Made by a program: the position numbers and the translations under genes
Shown: positions 42,783 through 44,374 of the stretch, in pieces
Layout: every line of letters begins with the position of its first letter
How positions within the stretch are numbered: position 1 is the stretch's first letter
Assembly: GCA_938036875.1 (NCBI GenBank)
Contig: CALHVX010000044.1
Span: 212,151 to 276,150, forward strand
From: an uncultured Pseudomonadales bacterium
GTDB taxonomy: Bacteria; Pseudomonadota; Gammaproteobacteria; Pseudomonadales; Azotimanducaceae
Direction: 5' to 3'
DNA length: 64,000 bases
Notes under the pieces: generated by a model
What the model was told of the DNA's origin: nothing
Seen by the model: only the letters and a program-made list of their open reading frames with translations
The model's database searches: none

Positions 42783-42962
42783 ATTCTCTCCTGCGCCCGA
42801 TGAGACGGGACTATCTTGTTGTTTAGCTAAACCCTCTACCCCTAAGTGTAATGCAAACCCCACCAGTTCCACAGCCACTAACCCAGAAAACCAACCTAGC
42901 TCGCATTTTGCGAGCGATTGCGGACACTTGACGGGCCTTGTTGGATAACCCACCATGCGTCT

Positions 42963-43112
42963 ATGAGCGTTATGCACACACAGACCACCCTATCCGAGCC
43001 AACAGGCATCTGCCTGCAGGCCGGCATCGCTATTGCTGACACTGTTGTCAAGGTACCAGCGACTGAGATCTTTGGGTTTTGGTCTGCTTGGTATTTTACT
43101 TACCTGCATTAG
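42963..43112 (+). CDS. Candidate aromatic leader peptide of the DAHP synthase gene
   Basis: ORF ends ...EIFGFWSAWYFTYLH*, followed by hairpin and terminator upstream of DAHP synthase; ATG at 42963 or 42972. Confidence 0.7.
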   Translation: MSVMHTQTTLSEPTGICLQAGIAIADTVVKVPATEIFGFWSAWYFTYLH

Positions 43113-43129
43113 CGCGCCTAGTAAATTAA

Positions 43130-43149
43130 GGCAGCGTTCAACGGCTGCC
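43130..43149 (+). promoter_or_regulatory. Intermediate hairpin between leader peptide and terminator
   Basis: GGCAGC-GTTCAACG-GCTGCC. Confidence 0.5.
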
Positions 43150-43155
43150 CCCGGA

Positions 43156-43191
43156 AACCCCGATCGGCAAGCCGAGCGGGGTTTTTTTTTT
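43156..43191 (+). terminator. Intrinsic terminator / attenuator upstream of DAHP synthase
   Basis: AACCCCGATCGGC-AA-GCCGAGCGGGG + T10. Confidence 0.9.
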
Positions 43192-43267: not shown

Positions 43268-44374
43268 ATGCAGGACCCTACCGCCGAGCCGATAGACAAC
43301 ATCAACGTCGAGGGGCATGAGGTGTTGTTAACGCCACAGGAGCTAAAACGTCAGCAGCCTCTGAGCCCAACGCTGGCCAAGCAAGTGGATGACTGCCGGG
43401 CTGCCGTCAATGCTGTGTTAACCGGTGCAGACCCTAGATTGCTTGTGGTGGTTGGGCCCTGCTCTATACACGATGCGCACGCGGCGCGAGAGTACGCAAA
43501 ACGCCTGCAAAGGTTAGCTGGTGAAGTGGAAGACAACCTATTGCTGGTGATGCGGGCCTACTTTGAAAAACCCCGCACCACCGTGGGATGGAAGGGTTTG
43601 GTGAACGACCCTCATCTCGACGACAGCTTTGATGTGGCTGGTGGTCTACAACTAGCGCGCCAATTGTTGCTAGATATCACGGCATTGGGTTTACCCATCG
43701 CCACCGAAGCGCTAGACCCCATTGCTCCACAGTATCTGCAGGATTTGATCAGTTGGTCTGCGATTGGAGCACGCACCGCTGAATCACAAACCCACCGCGA
43801 AATGGCCTCGGGATTAAGCTGTGCTGTGGGTTTCAAAAATGGGACCGACGGTGATTTAGGTGTCGCCATCAATGCTCTAGGCTCGGTAGCAAGCGCACAT
43901 CGCTTTCTCGGCATCTCTCAGGCCGGTGAAGTGGCCGTCATTCATACCCGTGGTAATCCTATGGCTCATATTGTTCTGCGCGGAGGCAGCAATGGCGCCA
44001 ACTACAGCGCCGACCACATAACGGCAAGCGAGGCAGAACTGGCTAAGCTGCAATCACCACATCCGGCCAGTCGCAGCATTATGGTCGATTGCTCACACGC
44101 CAACTCCAGCAAAGATCACAACCGACAGGCCTTAGTTGCCAAAGATGTGGCTGGACAAATCGAAGCGGGAAACACAAGCATCGTCGGCTTGATGCTAGAA
44201 AGTCATTTGATTGCTGGCGCTCAATCTCTCAACAGCAGCGCAAAAGTTGAGCTGACCTACGGACAATCGGTAACGGATGCCTGTATCGGCTGGGAAGAAA
44301 CAACGGAACTGCTACGCGAGCTAAACCAACGCTTAGCGCAACCGCTGCGTCGTCGGTCTAGCACCTTGGCATAG
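43268..44374 (+). CDS. aroG: 3-deoxy-7-phosphoheptulonate synthase (DAHP synthase, class I)
   Basis: LLVVVGPCSIHDAHAAREYAKRL; MRAYFEKPRTTVGWKGLVNDP; VDCSHANSSKDHNRQ. Confidence 0.95.
   Translation: MQDPTAEPIDNINVEGHEVLLTPQELKRQQPLSPTLAKQVDDCRAAVNAVLTGADPRLLVVVGPCSIHDAHAAREYAKRLQRLAGEVEDNLLLVMRAYFEKPRTTVGWKGLVNDPHLDDSFDVAGGLQLARQLLLDITALGLPIATEALDPIAPQYLQDLISWSAIGARTAESQTHREMASGLSCAVGFKNGTDGDLGVAINALGSVASAHRFLGISQAGEVAVIHTRGNPMAHIVLRGGSNGANYSADHITASEAELAKLQSPHPASRSIMVDCSHANSSKDHNRQALVAKDVAGQIEAGNTSIVGLMLESHLIAGAQSLNSSAKVELTYGQSVTDACIGWEETTELLRELNQRLAQPLRRRSSTLA

Follow-up and report, generated by a model that had tools for sequence, protein, structure and literature searches.

In E. coli, the first step of aromatic amino acid biosynthesis is controlled by TyrR and TrpR repression and by feedback inhibition. 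Attenuation by leader peptides is familiar from other E. coli genes. The leaders of trp, pheA, and pheST have aromatic codons, an intrinsic terminator, and an antiterminator; each is concerned with one amino acid, they regulate later steps or other genes, and they form three alternative helices. In the his operon leader, a ribosome that finishes translation masks a segment near the stop codon, which leads to helix C:D and the terminator, while a stalled ribosome leads to helices B:C and D:E.

Leader-dependent control has also been described or proposed for DAHP synthase itself. First, a leader-peptide attenuator of DAHP synthase, aroR-aroF, has been studied experimentally in Corynebacterium glutamicum. 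Transcription is reported to increase under Phe limitation, and Tyr to have no effect (Neshat et al. 2014, as cited in PMC11802643; PMC4046766). In having aromatic leader codons and in attenuating a DAHP synthase gene, aroR resembles the locus that we report here, but its aromatic codons are Phe-Tyr-Phe only, with no Trp, and it belongs to another phylum. Second, the uORFC-13-1 motif upstream of aroF in Acholeplasma, known from 24 sequences, was predicted to be a Phe uORF with a terminator (PMC8632094). It shares the arrangement of a uORF and a terminator before DAHP synthase, but it uses Phe codons, is found in other bacteria, and has a different RNA structure. Third, two papers cite an old suggestion that E. 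coli aroF-tyrA is attenuated (PMC8632094, PMC2659441). Because of these three precedents, the kind of regulation that we propose is already known. In the literature that we searched, we found no description of the attenuator family that we report, its three-amino-acid leader, its extra helix, or its link to the Pseudomonas RNA P15.

An aromatic leader upstream of DAHP synthase

We analyzed a 64-kb stretch of DNA (the window; 64,000 nucleotides) from an uncultured member of the Pseudomonadales. We propose, with a probability of roughly 0.88, that it contains a ribosome-mediated transcription attenuator of DAHP synthase, which responds to the charging of the Phe, Tyr, and Trp tRNAs together. The features are as follows.

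42928..42956, + strand: probable promoter, from its layout (TTGACG at 42928-42933, 17 nt, CACCAT at 42951-42956)
42963..43112, + strand: leader ORF, 49 codons plus stop, read from the sequence; aromatic tail kept in 25 relatives
43071..43103, + strand: control codons, TTT GGG TTT TGG TCT GCT TGG TAT TTT ACT TAC
43113..43119, + strand: segment 1 (CGCGCCT), right after the leader stop codon; partner is segment 2
43129..43136, + strand: segment 2 (AGGCAGCG); partner is segment 1 or segment 3
43142..43149, + strand: segment 3 (CGGCTGCC); partner is segment 2 or segment 4
43156..43191, + strand: intrinsic terminator, stem AACCCCGATCGGC/GCCGAGCGGGG plus T10; conserved as ACCCCG...CGGGGTTTTT
43166..43174, + strand: segment 4 (GGCAAGCCG), within the terminator; antiterminator partner of segment 3 (3:4 covariation in 26 sequences)
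43268..44374, + strand: gene under the proposed control, encoding an AroF-like DAHP synthase of type I (PDB match and NCBIfam models)

The leader ORF starts with the ATG at 42963 (a second in-frame ATG is at 42972), stops with the TAG at 43110-43112, and encodes MSVMHTQTTLSEPTGICLQAGIAIADTVVKVPATEIFGFWSAWYFTYLH. An earlier, sequence-only reading had pointed to its aromatic tail, E-I-F-G-F-W-S-A-W-Y-F-T-Y-L-H, and the C-terminal end (EIFGFWSAWYFTYLH) agrees: of the 11 residues between its first F and its last Y, both included, 7 are aromatic. Such clustered codons for the end products of the regulated pathway are what a ribosome-mediated attenuator needs. Short ORFs are frequent, and one that is rich in aromatic residues might by chance lie beside the terminator of some other transcript. 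However, across the six frames of the whole 64 kb, this is the only place with at least 7 aromatic residues among the 11 before a stop codon, and a terminator lies behind it; in addition, 25 relatives retain the ORF ahead of DAHP synthase, and the region shows covariation (see below). We therefore give chance almost no weight.

The putative -10 element, CACCAT, ends 6 nt upstream of the leader ATG. Most of the 26 family members (the window and its 25 relatives) have a TTG-type -35 and a TAnnAT-like -10 at equal spacing, and in most of them the -10 ends about 6-10 nt 5' of the leader ATG. At this distance, the transcript is predicted to start at or beside the ATG, and the leader ORF is probably nearly leaderless. 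A strict promoter scan of the window called no promoter here; the layout, which is a weak indication by itself, makes this a probable promoter.

Behind the leader, the GGCAGC/GCTGCC hairpin (43130-43135 and 43144-43149) and the intrinsic terminator (stem from 43156, with T10 at 43182-43191) are both where the sequence-only reading had placed them. The terminator thus lies between the leader ORF and the structural gene, as is typical of attenuators. A stock terminator scan made no call at 43156-43191, presumably because of an internal A.G mismatch in the stem.

The DAHP synthase ATG at 43268 is 76 nt past the T-run, close to the earlier estimate of about 75 nt. The gene had also been labeled aroG, which does not hold up: the best PDB match is the Tyr-sensitive DAHP synthase (435 bits, versus 377 for the Phe-sensitive AroG), and the protein scores 443.5 bits against the NCBIfam AroG equivalog, whose cutoff is 568. 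It passes the cutoffs for PRK12755 and aroFGH and is below those of the AroG and AroH models. The adjacent gene, nfuA, is convergent, so the transcription unit seems to be the DAHP synthase gene alone. The source draft genome (4.74 Mb) contains three members of the DAHP synthase family; when we searched that genome with a covariance model of the attenuator, just the copy in the window adjoined a DAHP synthase.

Conservation among relatives

For each member of the window's family, we examined the DNA upstream of the best DAHP synthase copy. In 25 same-family relatives, an aromatic leader is followed by a GGCRG...CYGCC hairpin and then by the ACCCCG...CGGGGTTTTT terminator, before DAHP synthase. 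In about ten other family members, the leader is absent at the best copy or the site is unreadable. The aromatic codon run is conserved across the 26 sequences: the last 18 codons of the leader encode an average of 5.8 aromatic residues, compared with 1.8 in the two alternative frames. All three of Phe, Tyr, and Trp appear in the tail of 20 leaders.

The order of the residues differs between these relatives, with their aromatic character retained, and the control codons lie at varying distances from the stop codon. This freedom is a better fit to sensing of charged tRNA than to a fixed arrest peptide. In TnaC, the nascent peptide itself senses a free amino acid. By that precedent, the leader peptide might arrest the ribosome on binding a free aromatic amino acid, instead of reporting on tRNA charging, and in Pseudomonas-like loci, the leader tail (YWFS) is indeed far more constant. 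However, in the window's family the residues are shuffled, only their aromatic character is kept, and the distance from codon to stop varies, so we consider arrest by the peptide very unlikely.

A covariance model of the region matched 118 of 151 family genomes (E <= 0.001). Part of this number belongs to a second class, whose hits mostly precede thrS (see below). We also considered hits outside the order, which resemble ordinary terminators and not DAHP synthase leaders, and set them aside.

Within the window's family, none of the second copies of DAHP synthase has a leader. When we considered the DAHP synthase copies across the class together with these second copies, we found further leaders in just four loci (L307, L310, L329, and L330). 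Among 80 loci that were found by similarity to DAHP synthase, most contain another, leaderless copy; our script reported a leader and a terminator in four, of which L085 and L109 are clear. L310, which is from another family of the class (genome G452, outside the order), has an aromatic leader (NFFAFYFWFSVPGGREARL) and a differently built terminator before DAHP synthase. This leader perhaps arose independently.

Alternative folds of the leader RNA

The leader RNA has four segments that can pair as 1:2, as 2:3, as 3:4, or in the terminator. The sequence-only reading had suggested that CGGCT pairs with AGCCG as an antiterminator. We found this pairing at 43142-43146 and 43170-43174, and it extends to an 8-bp helix that has a single bulged A (43142-43149 and 43166-43174). 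Because segment 4 is part of the terminator, helix 3:4 and the terminator are mutually exclusive.

As that reading had also anticipated, the leader and the terminator are coupled through an alternative fold, which is conserved and covaries in the 26 sequences. In helix 3:4, 21 changes affect both sides of a pair, versus 9.6 in shuffled alignments, and none of 500 shuffles reached as high a count; these shuffles keep the shared ancestry of the sequences, so the covariation figures are not exact probabilities. The cells of helix 3:4 are paired in 79% of cases, versus at most 55% if the helix is slid. For both 3:4 and 1:2, each sequence's own duplexes are stronger than swapped ones (0 of 20,000 permutations for each helix). 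In helix 2:3, 85% of cells are paired and three pairs changed on both sides. A segment that can pair with segment 2 is present in all 26 sequences, and it begins between -16 and +8 (median +2) relative to the stop codon. Since segment 1 lies at the stop codon, a ribosome that finishes the leader should mask it, which would allow termination.

Thus, we propose the following mechanism. If aromatic amino acids are ample, the ribosome would reach the stop codon of the leader and cover segment 1. Segments 2 and 3 would then pair, segment 4 would be left free, and the terminator would form, so that transcription would end upstream of the gene. If any aromatic tRNA lacks its amino acid, the ribosome would stall on the aromatic codons upstream, with segment 1 free. 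In that case 1:2 would pair, segment 3 would be released to pair with segment 4, the terminator would come too late, and the gene would be transcribed. The logic of this ladder is that of the enterobacterial his attenuator, which has histidine codons, regulates another gene, and has an additional upstream segment (A) that is not general in the window's family. Compared to the E. coli trp, pheA, and pheST leaders, the window has four alternative pairings instead of three.

In simulated folding of partial transcripts, the position of the ribosome determines the fold. With the polymerase at 43174-43177 and the ribosome's edge at 43090-43113, the predicted probabilities are 0.96-0.98 for 1:2 and 0.92-0.93 for 3:4. 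A ribosome at the stop codon yields 2:3 instead, and the probability of 3:4 falls to 0.02-0.21. On these probabilities, a stalled ribosome would favor read-through and a finishing ribosome would favor termination. The direction of the switch is the same as in the window in 24 of 26 relatives if the most favorable position of the polymerase is used for each; at one fixed position, 15 of 26 switch in the expected direction and 7 in the opposite direction. The folding energies are equilibrium values, and at equilibrium the complete terminator outcompetes 3:4, so timing must matter.

We also considered two additional structures. First, RNA upstream in the window can sequester segment 1, which might keep it from pairing without translation, but such a segment was found in just 9 of 26 sequences and is not general. 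Second, several relatives have a potential hairpin over the first aromatic codons (CCAGC...GCTGG), but it does not seem to be conserved (mean z of -0.8; z < -1.5 in 7 of 26).

The ORF, the terminator, the position of segment 1, and the alternative pairings, with their conservation and covariation, can all be read from the genomes that we compared. From them we infer translation of the leader, synchrony between the polymerase and the ribosome, the response to starvation, and a transcript start at the leader ATG or close to it. Ribosome-mediated attenuation, as originally proposed for this locus, is well supported by this comparison: both the conserved run of aromatic codons and the covarying alternative fold point to it. 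It would be a natural read-out of the pooled supply of aromatic amino acids. Control by the charging of all three aromatic tRNAs is thereby indicated for the first committed step of the aromatic pathway in a large and mostly uncultured group of Gammaproteobacteria.

Relationship to the Pseudomonas RNA P15

In the window, no Rfam family for Trp, Phe, His, or other leaders, no riboswitch, and no T-box reached its gathering threshold; the only find was a tRNA. There was a match below the threshold to RF00627 (Pseudomonas sRNA P15), with 28.9 bits versus a threshold of 70 (E = 3e-4 in a scan of 381 bases). When we searched 198 genomes of the order for RF00627, we found ten matches above the threshold, and all ten lie upstream of a DAHP synthase gene, whose distance from the terminator is 50-270 nt. 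Each of the ten has a leader that ends in YFFYGYWFSxRRA or similar and a terminator (L054-L065). There are also looser cases in other families. P15 resembles the window in its position before DAHP synthase (in the genomes searched), its aromatic leader ORF, and its terminator. It differs in that the Pseudomonas leaders have an apparent Shine-Dalgarno sequence and, ahead of the gene, another aromatic ORF. P15 is probably the terminated transcript of an attenuator upstream of DAHP synthase. In the non-subscription literature that we searched, we found no mention of this connection.

P15 has been listed as an sRNA (PMC2375449), and a riboswitch was suggested from its synteny (PMC2527527). Each of these proposals might be extended to the window. 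First, the terminated leader might act mainly in trans, as a small RNA or by way of its peptide, like rnTrpL/peTrpL of Sinorhizobium. The weak match of the window's leader to RF00627 and the annotation of a P15-type RNA as an sRNA (PMC2375449) are in favor, and attenuated leaders can act in trans (PMC7298713). However, the element is always directly upstream of DAHP synthase, its conserved and mutually exclusive pairings make sense for control in cis alone, and the order of the peptide's residues is not conserved in the window's family. A mainly trans-acting leader is therefore very unlikely; a role in trans would be compatible with control in cis. Second, the leader might be a riboswitch, as in the synteny-based proposal for P15 (PMC2527527), or might bind a protein, with the ORF being incidental. 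But besides the lack of a riboswitch or T-box match in the window, there is no extended conserved aptamer: what is conserved is a ladder of short helices, and of the reading frames, only the aromatic one is conserved. This makes a ligand- or protein-binding leader highly improbable.

Some loci have a second aromatic-rich small ORF between the terminator and DAHP synthase, for example MNTTYYRYYRNSDWRFSSALRATQRALPRTLR, with a near-invariant TGGCGATTTAGC (L055-L060, L062-L064, L066, L067, L069, L070, and L072). Each genome with the motif has a single copy of it. In some loci, such as L070 and L072, just a few bases separate the end of the second ORF from the start of DAHP synthase, which suggests translational coupling. 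A broader model would be that many Pseudomonadales have an attenuator at the entry to the shikimate pathway that pools the charging of the Phe, Tyr, and Trp tRNAs, that P15 is its terminated transcript, and that in Pseudomonas-like and Halomonas-like loci, the second ORF (...YYRYYR..WRFS...) adds a translational layer. We see the odds of this model as even. It offers a concrete function for P15, a Pseudomonas RNA that is listed as an sRNA with no known role.

Other leaders in the same family

Within the window's family, threonine-rich leader peptides (such as MRVMTTTTTTATSVAGSSRA), followed by a hairpin and a terminator, are found before thrS. We saw these in the window's own genome (L155/L349, on contig C110), where the leader is MNRNFSAQATTGG, and in L338, L339, L345-L347, and L352. 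They are likely to be threonine attenuators of threonyl-tRNA synthetase. A similar hairpin and terminator are found in L337, L340, L341, and L348, before a gene whose product starts with MFDLxxFxNPxxLxRxFLxTTEV.
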